From the NCBI GenBank assembly GCA_950295325.1, contig OX485805.1, positions 5,952,501-6,016,500 on the forward strand: a stretch of 64,000 nt of DNA, given 5' to 3'. The stretch is from Polytrichum commune (Eukaryota > Streptophyta > Polytrichopsida > Polytrichales > Polytrichaceae). The position numbers were made by a program, and so were the translations under genes. How positions within the stretch are numbered: the first letter of the stretch is position 1; each line of letters starts with the position of its first letter. The notes under the pieces were generated by a model, which was not told the DNA's origin, ran no database searches, and was given only the letters and a program-made list of their open reading frames with translations. Shown piece after piece: positions 13,617 to 56,293 of the stretch.

Positions 13617-13775
13617 TCACTTACCTGGGCGGGGTGTATCCATGATCTAGAAGGTGGATGGCCTAGAGGAGTCTGCCCCATTGCACTCCGGGCCGGGTGA
13701 CTCTAGTATCTTCCTACGGGAGGCATACACGTCATAATTTGTGGCAGCGGGGGCTCGCGTTCGCGCGGCCTCCTC
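13617..13775 (+). ncRNA. U1: U1 spliceosomal snRNA (copy 1)
   Basis: The 5' end contains ACTTACCTGGGCGGGG, which base-pairs with 5' splice sites. Stem-loop I has the U1-70K loop GATCTAGAAG. Stem-loop II has the U1A loop ATTGCACTCC (the other copies read CACTTCGG). The Sm site is ATAATTTGTGG, followed by stem-loop IV, CTCGCGTTCGCGCGG. There are 152 nt from the A of ACTTACC to the final GGCC, identical in all eight copies. It looks functional. The 5' boundary assumes the usual two nucleotides before ACUUACC, which here are TC rather than the canonical AU. Confidence 0.93.
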
Positions 13776-14743
13776 CTATAATTATTTAAGCAGAGAGGTC
13801 ATAAACGGATCGAACTTATGTTAGCAGTACCAACATTTTCCTTGATCTAATTTGAAATTTCACACGTTCCATGACGACGTTTTGTCATTTTAACATTTCA
13901 AATCTAAGTTTATAGTTTGTCTGCTGGACAGCTGAGGTGGTTTCAGTCCCTTGACCTGGGAATCTTTTGACACAAGATGCTACACAGGACATCAAAGTTG
14001 TGCTCATGCAAGAGTTGAACCAGCTGATCCACATTCGGCATCCCCACAAAGAGGAGGATATGTCTAAATGGTTGAGATTCCAGCGTTGTAAGTTATTTTC
14101 TCTCTTGGATCCCAAACACTGTTTTGTCCATACATGCATTGCTTATATGCAGTAGTTTCCTCTTCTAGAGTTTGTGAATATTAGGTGTTCATCTAAGCAC
14201 GTCTATACTTCTTCGAAGTGTGCAAGAAGGTGATTGTTAGTGCAGTTACTTGTTAGTGTAGGGTTTAATTGTCTACTTCAATTATGGAAATCGACTGTTA
14301 AAACTGAACAGAAAAAAACTAATTCACTGGATCTTGTACTCTTATGGATATGTTTTAGAATGGCCATTAGTCTTTCTGTCCAAGACATGCAGAGTTGATT
14401 GTGTAGGTTTTACCCTTCCATAAAGATTATCAGCAAGAAAGAGTTCGTGAAATCATCGCTCTACATTCTCAATAGGGTTTACTTATACCATTATACACTT
14501 CTTGCACCAACTCGATTGTGCTAATTTGCATCTCCTTCGTGCAGGATTCCTACGAAGTTGTGTCAGAAAGGAAGTTCACATATTATGGAACACCTTGGAA
14601 GTATGTTGTGATTACTAGGTTCTACAAAGAAATATGTGACTTGTAAAGATAGTCAATGTTGTCAAAATCCTTGAAGATTGCAGTGTACGTAAATTGAAAT
14701 GCAAACCTGATGATGCCGTAATGAACGAAGGATGTTTGTTATT

Positions 14744-14759
14744 TAACCCATTTGCATTG
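14744..14759 (+). promoter_or_regulatory. U1 upstream sequence element (copy 2), diverged
   Basis: TAACCCATTTGCATTG, again 55 nt before ACTTACC. It has two changes from the family consensus, including loss of the T in ATCCCA. Confidence 0.6.
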
Positions 14760-14812
14760 CAGTGGGTATGACTGACAGTGGCACTCAAGAGGCGAGCGCG
14801 AAGACATCAAAC

Positions 14813-14971
14813 CCACTTACCTGGGCGGGGTGTATCCATAATCCGCAAGGTGGATGGCCTGGACGAGCCTGCCCCATTGCACTTCGGGCCAGGTGACTCT
14901 AGTATCTTCCTACGGGAGGCATACACGTCACAATTTGTGGCAGCGGGGGCTCGCGTTCGCGCGGCCCTCAC
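14813..14971 (+). ncRNA. U1: U1 snRNA variant or pseudogene (copy 2)
   Basis: Same length and overall fold as copy 1, with an intact ACTTACCTGG 5' end. The U1-70K loop is altered (AATCCGCAAGG in place of GATCTAGAAGG) and the Sm site reads ACAATTTGTGG, not ATAATTTGTGG. The promoter element is also the most diverged of the eight. It may be expressed weakly, be a variant U1, or be an early-stage pseudogene. Confidence 0.8.
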
Positions 14972-16146
14972 CTGATTGATACTGAAACCGGAGAAGAACC
15001 TGTAAAGGGAGTCGAAATTGAACAACTGTTTGTATACTCTTGCTTAACCTGTGATGTGATGTTTGATCTTGACATTTTGTGGCACACCTGCCCAGTGGTA
15101 GTGTTATAGGCAATTTTTCCTACTCTAGTACGAAAGTGTTGAAAGTGAGGGGAACACAGATTATAGTTGCTAACAGATGGGAGTGTCACTTGATCATGTT
15201 AAGATGTTCAGCTTGCGAGGAAATTTGATAAAATGCTTCAAAAATATTCGCAACCCCTTACTAGGGTTTTTTGTTGTTTTGTTTTATGCGTACTAAATCA
15301 TGGGGCCATCAATGTGTTCGTAGCAGATTTCTGTGGATTGTTTGCGCTTACTTGTGTTTAGGTGAGTGAGTTGCTGTGGTTGTCTTTTCTTCTCATCTTC
15401 TTTGAGTATTTAATTTCTTTGACAGGAACAGTATTTCCTATACCCAACGTCAAAGATCTACTTATTGTACAGTAGCTACTACATATCCACATTCGTGAAC
15501 TCCACACACTTGAAGCAGGATTGTGTGTGGAAATGTGTAAAGTTGGGGAATGTCCATATGACTTTGTTTGAAGATCTCAAGTCAAGGTCCGAACTGCAAA
15601 AACTGCCAGATAGAGGAGGCACCAAAAGATGATATCTTGTGAAAGCACTGGGCAAGGGCCACCAACAATCTGTGAGACTTGTCAAAAGAGATGCAGAGTG
15701 AATTGTCTAGAATTTTGTGAATTTCCCATCAAGAAATCCAGCAAAGAAAGCAATCGCGACAGCACTGCTTTCACATAATTCTCTTGGAAGGAGTTGAATA
15801 TCAGCATCCAAGGATATGTCATCACTACTGAGTATTCAAGGAGAGCAGGCATGATCCTCTTGACCTGATCCTCTTTCTTGCCGCAATTCAAGTCCGGGAT
15901 AACTGTTAAGCTGTTTCATAAAGGTAAATGACATTATGGGGTCTCCATGGGCGCATTGTGCAGAACGTTGCGATGGTTTAAGACAGCAAGAGCCTTAATG
16001 AGTTGCACAGGACCTCAAAGACTTCCAAATTGTCGAGAATTGGAGGACCAAATCTCCAGTTAACCCTACCCTGAAGATAGAGTAGAAGAGATGGAAATGT
16101 CAGGAGAACGGAGATGAATACCTATCCTTCAGGTGGCGTGTCTCAT

Positions 16147-16162
16147 TATCCCATTTGGATTG
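16147..16162 (+). promoter_or_regulatory. U1 upstream sequence element (copy 3)
   Basis: TATCCCATTTGGATTG, identical to copies 1 and 5, 55 nt before ACTTACC. Confidence 0.75.
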
Positions 16163-16215
16163 CAATTGTTATGAATGGAAGTGGCATTCAAGTAGCGATC
16201 GCGAAGACTTTGAAG

Positions 16216-16374
16216 TCACTTACCTGGGCGGGGTGTATCCATGATCCTTGAGGTGGATGGCCTAGAGGAGTCTGCCCCATTGCACTTCGGGCCGGGTGAG
16301 TCTAGTATCTTCCTACGGGAGGCATACACGTCATAATTTGTGACAGCGGGGGCTCGCGTTCGCGTGGCTCCCAC
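16216..16374 (+). ncRNA. U1: U1 snRNA (copy 3)
   Basis: Intact 5' splice-site pairing sequence, 70K loop GATCCTTGAGG, U1A loop ATTGCACTTCGG and Sm site ATAATTTGTGA. Stem-loop IV carries CGTGGCT in place of CGCGGCC. There is no indel relative to the other copies. Confidence 0.9.
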
Positions 16375-16469
16375 CCAACTTATCTCAAAAGCCGGAGAAG
16401 AATCTATGAAGAGAAATTCAAAAGAGCCACAGGGTTTTTTGGAATTCTTTACCATTATTACCATAGTGA

Positions 16470-16600
16470 TTGTTTCCGAAAACATCATATGTATTGTAGC
16501 AATCTGCACTAAGCTTGTTGGGCACAAGATTGTGACAGCGATGCACATACTCTGTGTGGAAATTACAGAGGATAACTGTCTGGTTTTGGACGCTTACCCC
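16470..16600 (+). pseudogene. Decayed histone H4 fragment
   Basis: The translation VSENIICIVAICTKLVGHKI followed by VTAMHILCVEITE mirrors the H4 segment from [15 protein letters not shown] to [13 protein letters not shown]. Only the middle and C-terminal part can be seen and many residues are changed. It lies just downstream of U1 copy 3, which argues that H4 and U1 were once part of one repeating unit. Confidence 0.6.
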
Positions 16601-17422
16601 AAGCTTCAACTGAGATTACACACTGAGCTTCACAGAGCATGCTTTTGAGATTTGATGCCTCTTTGTTCTCACTTCCTTGTTATGGTGATCTCTCTAAAGA
16701 ACACAGGGTGCTATGCAAGCCGTCAAAAAAATATGTGCTTATCCAAGTATTGAACCAGACCCACATCCGGCATTCCCAAAGAGGAAGATATGTCTAATGA
16801 CTGATATACAACCGTTGTAAGTGATTTTCTCTCGTGTCTTAAAAGCTGTTGTTCCCATACATGCATCCCTTACATGCAATCGTTACATAAAATCTTGTAT
16901 AGTTTGTGAATTTTAGGTATTCATCGAAGGACATCTTTAATTCTTTGAACTGCACAAGAAGGTGGATGTTAGTGCAGTAATTGCTTTGTTTAGAGTTTAA
17001 TCTATTACTCAAAATGTGCAAATCAACTGCTAAAACCGGATAGAGAACTGTCTTTCTGTCAAAGGCCTGCAGAGTTGATTTTGTATGTCTTATACTATCA
17101 TCAAGATTTCCAGCAATAAAGGAGTTGTGATACCATTTCTTTACATTATCATAGGATTCATTCATACCAGTATACAGCTCTCTGACCAAGATTATGGTAA
17201 AATGTATTTTCTTTCGGCAGTATTCCCTCTAGGTTGTTATGTTCTCAGTAGGACTCATATTCTCGTTTCTATGTACCGCAAAGAAATATCCGACTTGCAC
17301 AAATAGTCAGTGGTGATTTCATACCACGTAAATTGAGCTGCGAAACCAAAAGATGCCAGTGAACAAAGGATTTTCAGAGTCAAAATGTGCAGGAGAATAC
17401 CCTCGATCGGGTGGATTTCCTT

Positions 17423-17438
17423 TATCCCATGTGGATTT
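17423..17438 (+). promoter_or_regulatory. U1 upstream sequence element (copy 4)
   Basis: TATCCCATGTGGATTT, 56 nt before ACTTACC; ATCCCA is kept. Confidence 0.7.
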
Positions 17439-17492
17439 CATTTTTTATGAATGGCAGTGCCATTGAAGTAGCCACTCTGAAAACTCTGAAAT

Positions 17493-17651
17493 TCACTTAC
17501 CTGGGCGGGGTGTATCCATGATCCTTGAGGTGGATGGCCTAGAGGAGCCTGCCCCATTGCACTTAGGGCCGGGTGACTCCAGTATCTTCCTATGGGAGGC
17601 ATACACGTCATAATTTGTGGTAGTGGGGGCTCGTGTTCGCGTGGCCCCCTC
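17493..17651 (+). ncRNA. U1: U1 snRNA (copy 4)
   Basis: All U1 landmarks are present: ACTTACCTGG, GATCCTTGAGG loop, ATTGCACTTAGG loop and Sm site ATAATTTGTGG. Stem-loop IV is CTCGTGTTCGCGTGG, where TG and GTGG changes keep most pairs by wobble. Same length as the other copies. Confidence 0.9.
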
Positions 17652-18532
17652 CGATTAATCTCATAAATAGAGGAATCAAAGCTAAACACTGCCCTAAACA
17701 TGATCAATTAAACCACATTTTGTATCTAGTAGCGATAGGAGCGTCACTTGATCCTGCGAAGAATCTGCGCTTCATATGCAATTAGATAATGCTTCAAAAA
17801 AATTCGCAATCCCTCACTACGCTTATTTGTATACAAGTTCATGTTTCACCACTGTCTTTGTAGCATATTTCTGTGGTTTGTTTGGTTTTCACTTGTGCCT
17901 GGTGAAATTGCTGTGACTCCCTATTCTTCTCATCTTCATCGGGTACCTGATACACTTCTAGATTCAGATGGCAATGTCTGGAAATGTGTCTACATCATTT
18001 GTTTAAGCACGGGTGTTGCTCTGTTTAGAATTCAAGCTTCCAACTTACAAAGGAATCCAACTGCACAAGCTGGATAAAGAAACACCAGAGAATCGACTTG
18101 TCAAAGGGATGCAGAGATGTAGAATTTTGTGATTTTCCATCAAGATATCCAGCAAGAAAGAAATTGCGACTGTATCATTGCCTTCACACAATTCTTCTCA
18201 TAGTAGTTCAATATCAGTACCCAAGGATGTATATTGAAATCACTACTGAATAGGTAGGAGGTAAGACCATATTTTCCTTATTTTCTTTCTTGGAGCAAAT
18301 CTAATTATGTTGATGTTAAGTTGTCTCTCATGTTAAGTCTCAATAGGCGAATTCTTTTGATGGTTTTTACAGCAAGAACCTTCTTCACTTGCACAAGACG
18401 TCAAAGACTTCCAAATCCTCGAGGATTGCAGGACACGAACCTCAACTTAACTCTAGAGATACGGTAACTTAGAAGCGATGGAAAGATCTGGAGTAGGCGA
18501 TGAATTCCTGGCCTTCAAGTGGCGTGCCTCAT

Positions 18533-18548
18533 TATCCCATTTGGATTG
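18533..18548 (+). promoter_or_regulatory. U1 upstream sequence element (copy 5)
   Basis: TATCCCATTTGGATTG, 55 nt before ACTTACC. A second conserved block, CATTCAAGTAGCGA, lies at about -34 to -20, where a TATA box would be expected. Confidence 0.75.
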
Positions 18549-18601
18549 CAATGTTTATGAATGACAGTAGCATTCAAGTAGCGAGCTCGCAAACTCTCCC
18601 T

Positions 18602-18760
18602 TCACTTACCTGGGCGGGGTGTATCCATGATCTAGAAGGTGGATGGCCTAGAGGAGCCTGCCCCATTGCACTTCGGGCCGGGTGACTCTAGTATCTTCCT
18701 ACGGGAGGCATACACGTCATAATTTGTGGCAGCGGGGGCTCGCGTTCGCGCGGCCCTCAC
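18602..18760 (+). ncRNA. U1: U1 snRNA (copy 5)
   Basis: Nearly identical to copy 1: ACTTACCTGGGCGGGG, GATCTAGAAGG 70K loop, ATTGCACTTCGG U1A loop, ATAATTTGTGG Sm site and an intact stem-loop IV. It is followed by TAATCTCGAAAACTGGAGAA, a block that recurs after most U1 copies and is the candidate 3' box. Confidence 0.94.
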
Positions 18761-26194: not shown

Positions 26195-27543
26195 TAGCTC
26201 AAATGGATTGCAAACAAGTTCATATGGATTGTGAGGGGATTGGAGCTGTTGTAATTGCGCCAATGACGCAGTTCATCACAAGGACGTCACGTATACTGCA
26301 TCATGACTCAGAGGAGAGCTCGTTCAGTCCAATGCTATAGTTGTTCATGAAAAGCTTTACTATATAAAGTATGTCTACAAGCCTGGTGGCTATCCACAAT
26401 GAATTCTGGGATGCCAAAATAAAATGCAGGGGATCGACAGATGCCTTGACTAGCAACAATCCCGCAAAATGTGTGCCCACTGCCCAATAGCAATGAATGG
26501 GGATAATTTGAGTCAACTTGGTGATCCTTGGTTCTTTATGATCAACTGGGTCAAAACATTATTAATTAATAAGTAGTGTGCGTTTGTTCATGTGGGGCCT
26601 GAGAATATAGTCATGGGATGCAATAGCTAGTGCATATTCAGTGTGATTTACTTTTCAACGCAAATGACTGCTAGTTTGTCATCAAAGCATTGGTTGACTT
26701 CAACCTCACCCTCACTATAGCGCCATAAAAGGGTTATACAAGGGTCGTGCAAGGTTTTGACGCAAGGTAATGCGCATGGGTAAAGAAGCAACCTATTGTT
26801 GAAGACAACCTAGTTGCACATTGTAGGTATTAAGTAGGTGTAGACGTATGAATTGGACATAATGAAATTGTGAACCTGCAATTCTTCCAATGGGCCTTAT
26901 AATAGAAATGGTAGAAAAGAGTCTTAGAAGTTAGATGTGGAATACATCTATTGTTGTAACATGTTTTACTTGCGTACATACTGTGTCATTTGTCTAAAAT
27001 GCAAATCTAGAGTTACTCCAAATCGACCACATTGCTTCTACCTAGGATTTAAGTATAATTGGATTTATGCATGAATTCTGAACAATTCCAACCAACAATA
27101 TCATGTACACTTGATTGCAAAACTACACAAATATGGTATTTGGCGAAAATGAAACACAAACATTTAAAGTTGTGGTTGTTGTGTAACTATGTTGTTGCTT
27201 TTGATGTTGTCATTTGATGTCTTTATCCCGACAAAGTGCACATCCATTATTAAATTTGGACAAGTGGTTAGTCCAGATATATTCAAATGTCCAATTTTCT
27301 TGAAGCAAGTACAATTGGAATTTCCATCATATAATCCTAATTTTATTAAGGTAAGTAATTTTTTATAATTTTCATGTCTCAACAACATGATATAAAAATT
27401 ACTCACAGATGCATTGTGTTATAAACCTCTCATCAACAATATCTCAAAGTAAAGAATTGAAACAAACACAATTTATTTCTTCCTCTAAGTACAATATGAG
27501 ACCAAATAAAGTTTGGTCAAAGAAGCTCTACCACCCGACCATA
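26195..27543. other. Intergenic, no gene
   Basis: AT-rich. A short segment at 26765-26840 has a diverged direct relative at 47281-47350 (both contain GAAGACAACCTA.TTGCACA), which points to old repeat remains. Confidence 0.4.
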
Positions 27544-28248
27544 GGAGAGAGACAAAAAAGATCCTCTCTCCTCCCCCGAGCTTCCTCTTATGCCGAAGCA
27601 CTACTTTTACTTTCTATATTTACATATAGTAAAAGTATTCTATTCATAGCTCTATCTCATAGTTTCACTATGAATCTTCTATCTTTGGTTCTTCTAGAAC
27701 CTTCTTTCATTTCTTATCTCAATTCCATTCTTCCAATTGGAACTGTCTAATTCCAATTGGATTCATCTATTCTTCATTCTAGTTGGAACTGTCTAATTCC
27801 AACTAAATACATCCATCCTTTATTCCAGTTGGAACTGTCTAATTCCAACTTGGTTCATCCAACCATTCTCTTAGTTGGAACTGTCTAAATCCAACTAATT
27901 CATTCATTCAATCTTCTAGTTGGAATTTTCTAATTCCAACTAGCTTTATCTATTCATTGAGAGTTGTCTAACTCCAATGAATAACATTCATCTTTCCAAA
28001 TATGGAGTGGTCTAACTCCTGTGCACTTCATCGAGAGTTGTCTAACTCACGTGCACATGTTCTCAATTGGAATGGTCTAGTTCCAATGCACTAAATGCGG
28101 AGCTGTCTAACTCCAGTGCACATGTTGTCAATCTGGAGTTGTCTTACTCCTTTCCATTCATCCTCAACTGAGAGTTGTCTAGCTCTCATCTTTCTCTGCT
28201 TACACACTGGCACATGTAGTTAGAATATTCCTTAATAATTCTAGTTAC
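27544..28248. repeat. Array of about 18 consecutive short hairpins with changing stems and a conserved loop
   Basis: Five irregular hairpins come first: 27544-27571, 27580-27599, 27603-27636, 27642-27675 and 27687-27701. Twelve similar ones follow at 27733-28188, and a last one at 28216-28248. The core units read stem-YTGTCTAA-stem. Stems include AATTGGAA/TTCCAATT, AGTTGGAA/TTCCAACT, CTAGTTGGAA/TTCCAACTAG, ATTGGAA/TTCCAAT, GGAG/CTCC and TGAGAG/CTCTCA. Where one arm changes, the other changes to keep pairing. The loop core GTCT is almost constant. The first five core units are spaced 45-46 bp, later ones 30-41 bp. I do not recognise the family. No coding frame follows the structure. Confidence 0.85.
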
Positions 28249-28430
28249 ATTACACATTGTTGACTTCATGTTAGGGGTATGGTTAAAACCTAGTACCTCT
28301 AAGGTAGACAACCCTTATTTGGTTACTTATCTTCATTGGGCACCTGTGTTTGAGTGATATGTGGTTTGGTGTGGCTCCAAGAACAAATATCAAAGTAACA
28401 TGTTTTTGATAGAGATTACTCTAGTAGAAA
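28249..28430. other. Intergenic, no gene
   Basis: AT-rich, no feature. Confidence 0.3.
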
Positions 28431-41082: not shown

Positions 41083-43680
41083 GGAGTAGAAAGAATGTCA
41101 ATACATACGGAATTTTAACACTTATTGAGGTAACACTTATAGTGGGAAAATTATAGTGTACACGACATTGAATACCACAAACAATGTAGTGGTAAAACCA
41201 TGTCACAATCCTCGTAGTGCAGGTTCCATGTGATATGAAGAGCCAATGAAATGAGAGATGATTGTCTTACAAGCATGATGATGGTTTCCATATGAAAAGG
41301 AGTAATACGAAAAAATAATAAATTGGAATGCACATGTTCATGTTATCGAGGTTGCTTTCTGATCAAAGGGTCTCTCAATCTTAGACGGTGTAACCCGTTA
41401 CTTGACCGGTTGCATGAATACCACGCCTTGTGTACATTAGATATTTTTATGGAAACCTAAAGGTTTAACCCAAGTTGTTTCTATGTATTATTTTTCTTTA
41501 TGAAGTAAGTCCATGGAATTCTTCTCCCTAGGGGTGAGGGAAATTATCCCCTTCTAGGTATACCTTGAACTCCTCAAGCTCAAAGGATACCTAGATGCAT
41601 CCACCAAGGATAATTTTATATTTTTCATTTCTTGGCAATTCCAATACACACAATATATATATATATAGTTCAAATATTCTTTCTTTTTGGTTGTTTCTGG
41701 AAAATTTGTAAGTTTTGGTTAACTTATAATTTTAGAAATCACATGCTTTTGTTGTTGCCTCTAGGTTTGTTTGATATCTCTAAGTTCACACAATGTTGTG
41801 ATTCAAGTAATTTGTAATATTTCTAAGTCTAAGTGCTTTTCTAAGTTTCACATAATTTTGTGATTCGAGTACTTTGTGATATCTCTAAATCTAAGTACTT
41901 TTGTTGATATCTCTAGGTTTCACATAATTTTGTGATTCAAGTATTTTGTGATATTTCTAAGACTAAATATTTTTCTAAGATCTTCTCAATTTCAATAACC
42001 TTTTGATTTTTTTAAACTTTTTTTAAATTTTGGTTGGCCCCTTAGTTGTTTTTACTATCTTCTAATTTGTTTGACTTTTCGGTCATTTTAATACTATCTT
42101 CTACTTTTGAATTCCAAGTGTTTTGTTTGCTCTATTTCCTAAGACTTGGAGTTCCAAGTTTGTTTTGTTTCTTGAGTCCTTTGGCTTCCAAAGGTTTTCT
42201 CAACACAGTCTCCAAGAGGTCTTCAAAAGAATATGTTCCCGATACAGTCAAGACTCTATAAATGTTACAGGTTGGGAGTAGCAAAAAAACAACATATATA
42301 GAATTATAACAAGTAACACTTATAGACTTCATAAGTTCATACCGATGATTAATAACATTTGTAGAAATAACATTTAAAATTTCTGCAAATGAAGAACGTA
42401 AAGTTTTATAAAAATAAAAAGTGAAAGTACAAATGATAATACATAATTCAACTAAACTAATTGAAAGAAATAATCTATGTAGTATTAACTTGACGAGATT
42501 CTTCCAACTAAACTAACCGAAAAAGGAAAATAAAAATAAAAATCATGCTCCGTACCTTGTCTGCAATCATGAAAATTGCAATTTTTTGAAAATAAAGTAA
42601 AAATCCCCATATCTCAGCTTGATTGCTTATGCGTGGTTGAACAACGAAGGAATTTGATTATAATTACAAAAATAGTAATTTTGTGGATAAAAAAGGAAAA
42701 ATCAAATAAAATTCAGGCTCCATACCCTTGATTGATCCGTAAACTATTGACTAACACTCTACTTGCAATTTTCTAAAAAGAAAAAGAAAAAAGAAGCTCC
42801 ATACAGTCTCTGCACCTACCTTCGCTTGATACATGCTATATCAAGTATTGTAAGCCCCAACTAGCAAACTAGCACCCAACAAGCACCCTACCTCCCAAAC
42901 CTTCTTTGTCTGCCATCTCCTCTCCCAAATTGCTTGAAAGTGCACAAGGAGGAAGGGTCTTTAAATAAGAAAGAATATTTGACTTGTTCGCAAAGAATAT
43001 GGGATAAATGTGATTACATGTTTAAAATGTATGCTCTCATATATTATCACCTTGATTTTCTCAAAACTAACAGTTATAGAGGTGCAATTAACAAAGAAGG
43101 GTATAAAGCATGTTATAACACTTAACACATAACACATAACACTCACTAGTCTTACCAATTGTGTTTTTGTAGGGGAGTAAAAGTTTCTTGACATATATGA
43201 AATTATAACGCTTATAGGGGTAACACTTGTAGAGTCTTGACTGTAAGTCTTCCCCACGCTCACATGAGTTGCTCGTTGTATATGAGGTGCCTTAGGTGTG
43301 CCCTATTTCCCTTTTTATATAGGGTCTAAATTCTAACAATTAGTTGATAGGGTGGTTACTCTTCCTTCTCCTATTTACAAATGTTCCAACCACTTATTTT
43401 TAGGTCTACATGTGGTCTCTGTATATCTATTTTTAGTAATAAACATGTGTTTCATTTATATGTACCTGTGAGAGACATACAGTCCATTTCATCTATATGC
43501 CTAGATGTGTCGTGGTCTTCCATTGCATCCAATGAAATCTCATCCACCACATTCATTCAGAATAACTTGAGATAGTTATGTTCATCCGAAGGATTGCCAT
43601 CCTCTGGACATGTCCCTTCATCTACTCAACTTCATCCAAAGGGCATTCCTATTTAAGTAGTGTTCACACTTGTTTTCAAG
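41083..43680. other. AT-rich region with repeat remains, no gene
   Basis: Contains three tandem units of about 75-80 bp at 41779-41990 (CACATAATTTTGTGATTC..GTA.TTTGTGATAT). It also has dispersed GGGAGTA...TAACACTTATAG blocks near 41083, 42270 and 43170, and an inverted pair CAAGACTCTATAAATGTTA (42247) / TAACACTTGTAGAGTCTTG (43227). These look like ends of a decayed element. Confidence 0.45.
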
Positions 43681-43847
43681 TCTATCTAAATTCCCTAAGT
43701 TCCCAATGGCGTGCTCGCTTTCCTTAGGGCTTGCTCGTGCTCCTGGAGCTTGCTCGCATTCCCGAGGGCTCGCCTAAATTCCCAAAGGCCTGAGCTTCAT
43801 TCCCCCGCAACCCTGTCTTTTCTCACAACCTTGGCTCATTCCCATAT

Positions 43848-44195
43848 GTCGCGCACCTCTTCATGAGGAGTGCCCAAAACATCATGGGCACAAGGGGGAC
43901 CTTGGAGTGACACCCGGAACTTGTGGCGCCATTGATGAGAGGGCCCAAGTGATCCTAATGTGGGTGAGGCCCCCGGGCGTTGGGAACGCCTCCCACCCAC
44001 GGAGACTAGGGAGACCCACGGAGACAATCTGTCGCGTACCTCTCCATGAGGAGTGCCCGAAACACCATGGACACAAGGGGGACCCCGGAGTGACACCCGG
44101 GACTTGTGGCGCCGTTGGTGAGAGGGCCCAAGTGATCCTAGTGTGGGTGAGGGCCCCGGGCGTTGGGAACGCCTCCCACCCACGGAGACTAGGAG
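43848..44195 (+). repeat. Tandem duplication of about 183 bp
   Basis: 43848-44030 and 44031-44195 are very similar; each contains GAGTGACACCCGG and GAGAGGGCCCAAGTGATCCT. An open frame on the minus strand through both copies is a by-product of the repeat. Confidence 0.8.
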
Positions 44196-54401: not shown

Positions 54402-54560
54402 GTAGAGGCCGCACGAACGCGAGCCCCTGCTGTCACAAATTATGACGTGTATGCCTCCCGTGGGAAGATACTAGAGTCACCCGGCCCGAAGTGCAATGGG
54501 GCAAATCCCTCTAGGCCGTCCACCTTTAGGTTCATGGATACACCCCGCCCAGGTAAGTGC
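54402..54560 (-). ncRNA. U1: U1 snRNA (copy 6)
   Basis: Intact ACTTACCTGGGCGGGG, U1A loop ATTGCACTTCGG and Sm site ATAATTTGTGA. The 70K loop reads GAACCTAAAGG, not GATC-type, and stem-loop IV has CAGGGGC / GTGCGG changes. Length equals the other copies. Possibly a weaker or variant gene. Confidence 0.85.
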
Positions 54561-54613
54561 GTTCTATGTCTTCTAACTCGCTAGTTGAATGCCCCTGCCA
54601 TTCAAACCAACCA

Positions 54614-54629
54614 CAATCCGAATGGGATA
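54614..54629 (-). promoter_or_regulatory. U1 upstream sequence element (copy 6)
   Basis: The minus strand reads TATCCCATTCGGATTG, exactly 55 nt before ACTTACC. Confidence 0.75.
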
Positions 54630-55495
54630 AATAAGAACAGCACATCTTTCTGCACATGATTCCGACCTTTCAATCCTTCGTTCATCTTGGCATCCTCAAA
54701 GTTGCGGTTGGACTTGTGTTGTAAGCTTCAAGAATTTGACAACATTGACTATATGTGCAAGTACCTAGAAACCAAAACACGAGTCCTTCTGGGTCTTCCA
54801 TAACATGCGAACTTCATTTCTGAAACAAATTAAGAGGAATCCTGCCCGAATGAAATGTAAATTAGCACAATCTTGGTGCAAGAACTGTAAACTGGTACAA
54901 GAGACTCCTATGATGAGAATCGAAAAGCAATGATATCACAACTCCTTTCTTGCTGGAAATCTTGATGAAAACACAAACTCTGCACAATCAACTCTGCATG
55001 TCTTTGACAGAGAGGCTAATGGTGGCCTTTCTACAGTACATCCCTAAGAGAACACGGTCTGGGGAATTAGTGTTACTGTCCAGTTTCTAACAGTTGATTT
55101 CCATAATTTGAGTGGAAGATGAAACTCTAAACAGAGCAATAACTGCACTAATTCCCTTCTTGCACAGTTCAAAGAAGTAAGACGTGCTTAAATGAACACC
55201 TAACATCCACAAACTCTAGAATAGAATAAAATTGCATACAAGGAATACATGTATGGAAATAACAGCCTTTGAGATGAGAGCAGGTGAGGATTTGGACCAC
55301 ATTGAGTTGCCTATTATCTAGAATAGTTTCGTAGCATCAATTCTAGATTTTGTAGCATTATCTCGAGTTAAGGGCGCACCAATATGCTTTGATGAGAACT
55401 TACATCACCACACACAGATATCATACTACGGGTGATCAAAAACTTTGTTTCGTACCTAAAATTTTAAAAATAGTCCGATTTCTAAGATTACTCAT

Positions 55496-55654
55496 GTGAA
55501 GGCCGCGCGAACGCGAGCCCCCGCTGCCACAAATTATGACGTGTATGCCTCCCCTAGGAAGATACTAGAGTCATACGGCCCGAAGTGCAATGGGGCAAGC
55601 TCCTCTAGGCCATCCACATTGAGGATCATGGATACACCCCGCCCAGGTAAGTGA
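55496..55654 (-). ncRNA. U1: U1 snRNA (copy 7)
   Basis: ACTTACCTGGGCGGGG, U1A loop ATTGCACTTCGG, Sm site ATAATTTGTGG and a perfect stem-loop IV. The 70K loop is GATCCTCAATG, and TATGAC replaces GGTGAC near stem-loop II/III. Same length as the others. Confidence 0.88.
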
Positions 55655-55707
55655 CTCTGGAGTCTTCGCGCTCGCTACTTGAATGCCACTGCCATTCACA
55701 ACAAGTA

Positions 55708-55723
55708 CAATCCGAGTGGGATA
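55708..55723 (-). promoter_or_regulatory. U1 upstream sequence element (copy 7)
   Basis: The minus strand reads TATCCCACTCGGATTG, 55 nt before ACTTACC. TCCCAC is closer to the angiosperm element than in the left cluster. Confidence 0.75.
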
Positions 55724-56134
55724 AACAAGAACAGCACGCCTCTTCTGCACTTGATTTCAGCTCTTACAATTCTTTGTTCAACTCGGTAGCTTCAGGTTTG
55801 CGGGGAATTTAGTATGCAATCTTTAAGAATTTGACACCATTGACCATTTATGTAGGTCAGATATTTCTTTGCAGTACCTAGGAACCGGATCATCCTTCTG
55901 AAGTCTTCCCTAAATCTCAGTTAAAGGTCGGGGTGTCTCCTAGGCGTCCAAAATTATACGGAGTTATACTCTGTCACTTTAGAGACCATAGGTGTCATAA
56001 CCTTGCACCCAGCACATGATGTTTTCCATTCAAATCACCACGGGCGCAAATCTCTGAAATTCTGGTAAGCGGGTATATTTGCCTTATTTTGCACATCCTT
56101 CGAGGCCTCCTCTCCGATTTTTACGATTGCCTTA

Positions 56135-56293
56135 GTGAGGGCCGCGCGAACGCGAGCCCCCGCTGCCACAAATCATGACGTGTATGCCTCCCGTAGGAAG
56201 ATACTAGAGTCGCCCGGCCCGAAGTGCAATGGGGCAGGCCCCTCTAGGCCATCCACCTTCAAGATCATGGATACACCCCGCCCAGGTAAGTAA
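56135..56293 (-). ncRNA. U1: U1 snRNA (copy 8)
   Basis: TTACTTACCTGGGCGGGG, 70K loop GATCTTGAAGG (closest to the usual plant loop), U1A loop ATTGCACTTCGG and intact stem-loop IV. The Sm site reads ATGATTTGTGG. Same length as the others. Confidence 0.9.

Follow-up and report, generated by a model that had tools for sequence, protein, structure and literature searches.

What is a 705-bp stretch of moss DNA in which one small hairpin follows another, with an almost constant loop and stems that differ on both arms together? The stretch lies at 27544-28248 of a 64,000-nucleotide window of the Polytrichum commune genome (the window being the whole piece of DNA that was analysed, a part of contig C3 in a genome of 408 Mb with seven large contigs). 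An initial annotation, made from the letters alone, described about 18 hairpins, took the paired stem changes to imply a maintained structure, and regarded the array as an unnamed element of its own. On sequence evidence, the array is the U3 of a solo long terminal repeat (LTR) from a Ty3/gypsy chromovirus family, and it holds 12 dyad-symmetric units whose inner letters have been under purifying selection. We consider these units candidate protein-binding sites that together would form a multi-site enhancer for transcription from the 5' LTR, a reading to which we give a probability of roughly 0.6.

The idea of a free-standing new element was given up on comparison with the rest of the genome, since the array stretch is part of an LTR with many genomic matches and full elements, and a match to a known kind of transposon is found in its LTR pairs, TG...CA ends and chromovirus domains, an outcome that the annotation had itself named as a refutation. 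At least 44 matches to the array stretch were found with the best 40 of 696 candidates scored, and one 20-letter hairpin occurs 780 + 698 times in the genome at up to two mismatches, against 0 + 0 for a reversed control. At no more than five such units per LTR, these occurrences suggest hundreds of LTRs. All copy counts are lower bounds, as the genome searches scored the 40 best DNA candidates or the 150 best Pfam candidates. Several matches form same-strand pairs 5-7 kb apart, and four elements of 6-8 kb (L005-L008) carry direct repeats of 804-830 bp at both ends, identical at 100% in L005 and L008, 99.0% in L006 and 98.8% in L007. The frame between the LTRs of L005 encodes Gag, protease, reverse transcriptase, RNase H, integrase and a chromodomain in Ty3/gypsy order (Pfam on three pieces); the integrase core rve scores below the Pfam cut-off, the zinc-binding, SH3 and chromo domains above it. 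A stop-free frame of 1539 amino acids is present in eight of the 150 integrase SH3 hits, these being the best 150 Pfam candidates, and the array is present in L005, L047 and L048, the three of those eight for which an LTR was fetched. Identical LTR pairs in two of the four elements, together with the stop-free frames, indicate that the family was recently active. A sequence like a primer-binding site, TGGTATCAGAGC, which we take to fit the plant initiator tRNA-Met, stands beside the 5' LTR, and a polypurine tract, GGAAGGGGGAGAT, beside the 3' LTR (one letter differs in L008); their positions show that the element is oriented along the minus strand of the window. The LTR termini are TG...CA with a 5-bp target duplication, and some copies begin TA, not TG, on the window-oriented strand. 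Within the window there is no tRNA gene and no match longer than 150 bp to the sequence between the LTRs of L005-L008.

Along the element strand, the window copy runs from the LTR start through 12 core hairpins (28188 down to 27732) and a hairpin resembling a heat-shock element (27701-27687) to a TATA-like box (27629-27614), followed by predicted-R hairpins and AATAAA. The U3/R borders and the position of the promoter are predicted from sequence. The features are as follows:

27417-28254, minus strand: solo LTR of the Ty3/gypsy chromovirus, 838 bp; starts TGTAATG and ends ...TTATAACA; blastn matches to the L005-L008 LTR pairs from 27434 on
27412-27416: target-site duplication CATTG, left copy, read from sequence
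28255-28259: target-site duplication CATTG, right copy, read from sequence
28169-28188, minus strand: core hairpin H1, TGAGAG-CTAGACAA-CTCTCA; changed in place from GAGAG/CTCTC to GGGAG/CTCCC in related lineages
28135-28150, minus strand: core hairpin H2, GGAGTAAGACAACTCC
28099-28114, minus strand: core hairpin H3, GGAGTTAGACAGCTCC, with one T.G wobble
28066-28087, minus strand: core hairpin H4, ATTGGAACTAGACCATTCCAAT
28035-28048, minus strand: core hairpin H5, GAGTTAGACAACTC
28004-28019, minus strand: core hairpin H6, GGAGTTAGACCACTCC
27953-27981, minus strand: core hairpin H7, TTCATTGGAGTT-AGAC-AACTCTCAATGAA, with one bulge
27916-27943, minus strand: core hairpin H8, 12-bp stem, loop AGAA in the window copy
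27871-27898, minus strand: core hairpin H9, one mismatch in the window copy
27827-27850, minus strand: core hairpin H10, AGTTGGAATTAGACAGTTCCAACT
27780-27805, minus strand: core hairpin H11
27732-27761, minus strand: core hairpin H12, TCCAATTGGAATTAGACAGTTCCAATTGGA
27687-27701, minus strand: GGTTCTAGAAGAACC hairpin, including TTCTAGAA, which we take to be a heat-shock-element-like core
27614-27629, minus strand: predicted TATA-box region inside a hairpin, CTATATGTAAATATAG (ACTATATATAAATATAG in L005), from sequence
27544-27571, minus strand: hairpin with a longer loop in the predicted R region, GGAGAGAGG...TCTCTCC, from sequence
27472-27477, minus strand: AATAAA, putative polyadenylation signal, from sequence

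Lying between the outer end of U3 and the TATA-like box, the array would belong to U3, upstream of the predicted promoter, and would be present in RNA at the 3' end only. A TATA-like string is found in 59 of the 87 LTR rows first aligned, some of which are cut short, and the GGTTC-type site of the neighbouring hairpin in at least 31 of these rows, which are cut at different lengths (26 exactly as in the window copy). The TATA-like box sits within a perfect 6-bp hairpin, 27614-27629, itself nested in a longer imperfect one at 27602-27637.

The array itself is much as the initial annotation described it. Eighteen hairpins were counted in the 705 bp, comprising 15 perfect ones (stem of 5 bp or more, loop of 3-8), two imperfect core hairpins (28114-28099 with a wobble and 27898-27871 with one mismatch) and the hairpin in predicted R; a sixteenth perfect stem-loop, 27518-27500, falls outside the region. 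Twelve of the 18 are core units, spaced from loop to loop at 30-46 bp (36, 36, 30, 35, 30, 44, 38, 45, 46, 46 and 46), and a 46-bp tandem repeat was detected in the array. The loop is AGAC on the element strand (GTCT on the plus strand) in 11 of these 12, H8 being the sole exception. Dinucleotide shuffles of the 838-bp LTR, 200 per setting, did not yield as many perfect stems: the LTR has 16 of at least 5 bp (shuffle mean 4.6, maximum 11), 11 of at least 6 bp (1.5, 4) and 7 of at least 7 bp (0.3, 3). When G.T pairs are admitted, the excess is smaller at 6 bp or more (18; mean 9.9, maximum 16), and the 24 stems of at least 5 bp are within the shuffle range (mean 18.4, maximum 26). The U3 folding energy has z scores of -9.1 (element-sense strand) and -12.0 (opposite strand), with 60 shuffles each. 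Around the near-constant loop the stems do differ on both arms, between units (AATTGG/CCAATT and AGTTGG/CCAACT; GGAA/TTCC and GGAG/CTCC) as well as in one hairpin across lineages (GAGAG/CTCTC and GGGAG/CTCCC), but the inner stem keeps the same sequence for the most part. The annotation overlooked this, and also the fact that the array is part of an LTR.

Whether that constancy reflects selection can be judged from the history of the family. LTR rows 69-100% identical to the queries were aligned, first 87 and then 127, the latter being the window copy and one LTR each of L005-L008, L009-L046, L047-L049, L056 and L067-L146. L001-L004 repeat places already used, and L050-L055 and L057-L066, which are of other families or without the array, were left out. 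L037 and the L007 row represent a single LTR, counted twice in the 87- and 127-row analyses; L037 was dropped in that of 126 tips. Some other rows are possibly two LTRs of one element (e.g. L094 and L121). The tree was built from columns outside the hairpins and has 126 tips in its final form; deep branches are those of clades of three or more, a cut picked after the 127-row result. For H1 to H12, an orthology filter applied to the 127 rows kept 117/122, 123/124, 122/124, 82/124, 123/123, 104/123, 105/117, 111/112, 20/20, 68/74, 101/103 and 101/125 rows. Events on tree branches are not fully independent, and the p-values below are therefore guides.

On tip branches, where changes mostly postdate insertion, the site classes are near-even, at 29-38 changes per 1000 letters (127 rows). 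Deep branches are another matter: with 126 tips, changes per site amount to 0.26 in the core stem, 0.35 in the tetraloop, 0.60 at p1-2, 0.78 in the outer stem and 1.01 in linkers, and by Fisher tests of the deep/shallow ratio against the linker the corresponding p-values are 3e-10, 9e-7, 0.04 and, for the outer stem, 0.65. Deep/shallow ratios are 0.08 for the core stem and 0.09 for the tetraloop, as against 0.30 for the outer stem and 0.27 for the linker. On older branches, changes in the core stem and loop are thus three to four times rarer than in linkers, and the outer stem is as free to change as the linkers are. The same direction, with smaller differences, is seen over all internal branches of the 127 rows (core stem 0.46, tetraloop 0.73, linker 1.42; p = 6e-11 and 3e-5) and in an earlier cut of the rows (0.41, 0.44 and 1.02). 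This is the footprint of purifying selection. As far as the aligned sequences tell, it has kept the inner 16 letters, whose prevailing form on the element strand is GGARTT-AGAC-ARYTCC, but has left the outer arms free.

The claim that paired changes betray a maintained structure fares less simply. In the true register, seven deep changes convert one Watson-Crick pair to another on both sides (126 tips), whereas controls slid by -3, -2, -1, 1, 2 and 3 give 0, 0, 2, 1, 1 and 0; slid pairs start with fewer Watson-Crick pairs, so that the control somewhat favours the true register. The clearest instance is pair 6 of H1, where A-T gave way to G-C and the surrounding core stayed the same; the clade with this change comprises 46 of the 87 rows. 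An excess of two-sided changes thus stands, but the events are few, some may be unit replacement, and the selected part is conserved in its sequence and not in its pairing alone.

In the explanation that we favour, each unit would be a dyad-symmetric site for a sequence-specific protein, be it a transcription factor of the host or some other factor that benefits the element. The 12 units would together act as a multi-site enhancer driving transcription from the 5' LTR, and the stem-loop appearance would follow incidentally from the dyad symmetry of double-stranded DNA, H8-H12 having perhaps been widened by duplication of a longer palindrome. Support comes from the conservation of the core in sequence, as is expected of a binding site, from a folding-energy excess at least as strong on the non-transcribed strand, and from the place of the array between the outer U3 end and the TATA-like box. 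Palindromic arrays ahead of a TATA box in another family of this genome (L053) and in Sirevirus LTRs, both described below, add to this support. A number of observations weigh on the other side. The paired stem changes, seven against 0-2 in slid register, are more than a plain binding site needs; the outer arms of H7-H12 pair far past the constrained core; no common helical phase of the 12 units emerges from their spacings; and we know of no named plant site that fits the core.

Could the hairpins instead act in RNA? With U3 at the 3' end of the genomic RNA, a string of AGAC loops on purine-rich linkers might serve as a binding place for Gag, or for an RNA-binding protein of the host, in packaging, stability or translation. 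A constant loop with paired stems, the purine-rich linkers themselves and the excess of two-sided changes over slid controls would all suit such a role, and selection on pairing in the transcript should cause one-sided changes on old branches to yield G.T more often than A.C, as read on the element strand. Some cuts do lean that way: G.T:A.C counts on internal branches are 31:12 in 87 rows, 26:14 with the orthology filter added, and 37:26 in 127 filtered rows (19:18 in the core alone), and with 126 tips they are 26:8 in clades of three or more (core alone 12:5) and 38:26 in clades of two or more. However, the linkers lean alike, with a predicted G.T share of 0.62-0.73, and none of the 15 cuts exceeds it significantly (p between 0.13 and 0.95); against a linker share of 0.67, the ratios 26:8, 12:5 and 38:26 yield p-values of 0.15, 0.47 and 0.74. 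The energy excess on the opposite strand, the core stem's conservation in sequence and the existence of related rows without the array also tell against an RNA role. Nothing in the present data favours an RNA function, and we regard it as unlikely. No match to a known RNA family was found: an Rfam-type search of the window at gathering thresholds returned no described family at the array and none elsewhere except U1 small nuclear RNA (snRNA). The U1 hits comprise eight genes or copies above threshold, five of them at 13617-18760 (plus strand) and three at 54402-56293 (minus strand).

Nor need the array have any function, if a chance palindrome was spread by tandem duplication and its arms were kept alike by exchange between units or by template switching in reverse transcription. 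The 46-bp tandem repeat is what such a process would leave, and the two-sided changes in H7, H9, H11 and H12, which coincide with unit replacement or uncertain orthology, may be whole-unit exchanges. Single copies have two-sided changes too: tip branches carry 13 of them, compared with 1-5 for slid controls (127 rows), and these are not explained by selection on the element. A neutral array, however, would not have fewer older changes in core stem and loop than in linkers; the rate test has, on these alignments, already weakened this account, which we rate as quite unlikely. The least probable proposal, and a distant one, is that the array engages or counters host silencing, its hairpin RNA serving as a source of small RNAs or its units as sites for an anti-silencing factor. 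In maize Sirevirus LTRs, small RNAs are reported in excess at palindrome clusters (Bousios et al. 2016, as described in passages of PMC10760457), but the hairpins here are short (14-30 nt in all), and targeting alone would not conserve the core.

Seen as a promoter module of binding sites, the array has a close parallel. In passages of Bousios et al. (2010; PMC2829016), the LTRs of Sireviruses, which are Ty1/copia elements, carry palindromic repeated motifs upstream of the TATA box, with 8-32 copies per element, those outside the LTRs included, and a CGG-CCG core in 12 of 13 motifs. The motifs are there called Sirevirus-specific in a comparison among Ty1/copia elements, their sequence varies between elements, and a cis-regulatory role is put forward as a proposal. 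The array resembles them, as far as those passages describe them, in its many dyad-symmetric copies (12 in the window copy) upstream of a TATA box, here a predicted one. It differs in its core, GGARTT-AGAC-ARYTCC, without CGG-CCG and without any CpG in the 12 units, and in its carrier, a Ty3/gypsy element with a Ty3-type Gag and a chromodomain. On present evidence the array would work like the Sirevirus motifs, yet it is not a member of that group, being in the wrong superfamily and having the wrong core. Among the open-licence literature matches listed (titles and abstract starts), none names a palindrome array in a Ty3/gypsy LTR, and the core letters gave one match, in a paper on hemp markers. 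What is known, then, is the palindrome array of Sirevirus LTRs, and what is new here is an array of other sequence in a Ty3/gypsy chromovirus.

Other LTRs invite comparison as well. ONSEN-type heat-responsive LTRs carry heat-shock elements, and like the array these are palindromic transcription-factor sites upstream of a TATA box. The core array differs in having no match to nTTCnnGAAn; by inspection, alternating nTTCn/nGAAn units are absent from the 12 core units, with one TTCTAGAA beside the array. Tnt1-type U3 regions contain the BII box, and their boxes are other sequences than the array core. The likeness there lies in symmetric or tandem sites of transcription control within U3. Box I is named in passages of PMC2829016 and tandem repeats in passages of PMC3601003, and such boxes stand two or three in tandem (PMC2829016), in contrast to the 12 units of the array.

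Within this genome, the array looks, from the sequences compared, like a property of a single lineage, not like something that the replication cycle requires in general. L051, L052 and L054 are relatives by their pol end and LTR start, each a single copy in partial decay; within 600 bp they have 0, 0 and 2 hairpins of at least 6 bp, and the core is absent from all three. L058 and L063 have no hairpin of that length, and L065 has five of other sequence, above its own shuffles (mean 0.6, maximum 4). Limitation to one lineage is more in keeping with a promoter module than with a signal for packaging or reverse transcription. L053 has five hairpins, four of which are TTCTAGAA palindromes, presumably matches to the heat-shock-factor site; in all, eight such palindromes lie 65-167 bp upstream of TATATATAAG. 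L053 and L055 (832-941 in element orientation) represent another family with eight of these palindromes per LTR, an array of the ONSEN kind, and this family is a candidate heat-responsive retroelement. Their position before a TATA box indicates that palindromic site arrays at such places occur more than once in this genome.

Several further observations concern these relatives and the window. L057 has a hairpin array of its own at about 940-1145 (element orientation), made of four near-copies of ATTTAGGTCGACTCAACCTAAAT about 40 bp apart; it was rejected as a second LTR array, as long inverted repeats flank it on both sides and the sequence looks like a fold-back element. Of 20 chromovirus 3' ends, 13 have a 6-bp hairpin with the loop G[AC]GGAC immediately ahead of the polypurine tract, on three unrelated stems (GTCATT, ATGAAC and ATTGAT). 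It is found at L047:209-226, in L051 and L052 (minus strand) and, counted in bases after the integrase SH3 hit, at about 491-509 in L057-L063 and about 266-284 in L064 and L065; the window has none. In six rows chosen for having it, 35 of 35 cells pair and five of the six pairs change on both sides, with 0 in slid controls. This hairpin is coding in the family of the window array and lies beyond a stop in the L057-L065 families. The window also contains two more tandem arrays, at 41779-41998 and 43847-44193, with units of 72 bp and 183 bp.

A bolder version of the favoured explanation holds that chromoviruses, independently of Sireviruses, evolved a promoter of a dozen near-palindromes read by a dedicated protein, with use of the hairpins at the RNA level possible too. 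We entertain this tentatively, as somewhat doubtful; if true, the promoters of plant LTRs in both superfamilies would have converged on palindrome arrays as a general design. The many copies of this family, together with related rows that lack the array, offer a clean system in which to ask whether the dyad symmetry is there for binding to DNA or for folding of RNA. A selected array with a different sequence, in a Ty3/gypsy chromovirus that was active recently, suggests that arrays of this kind arise repeatedly.
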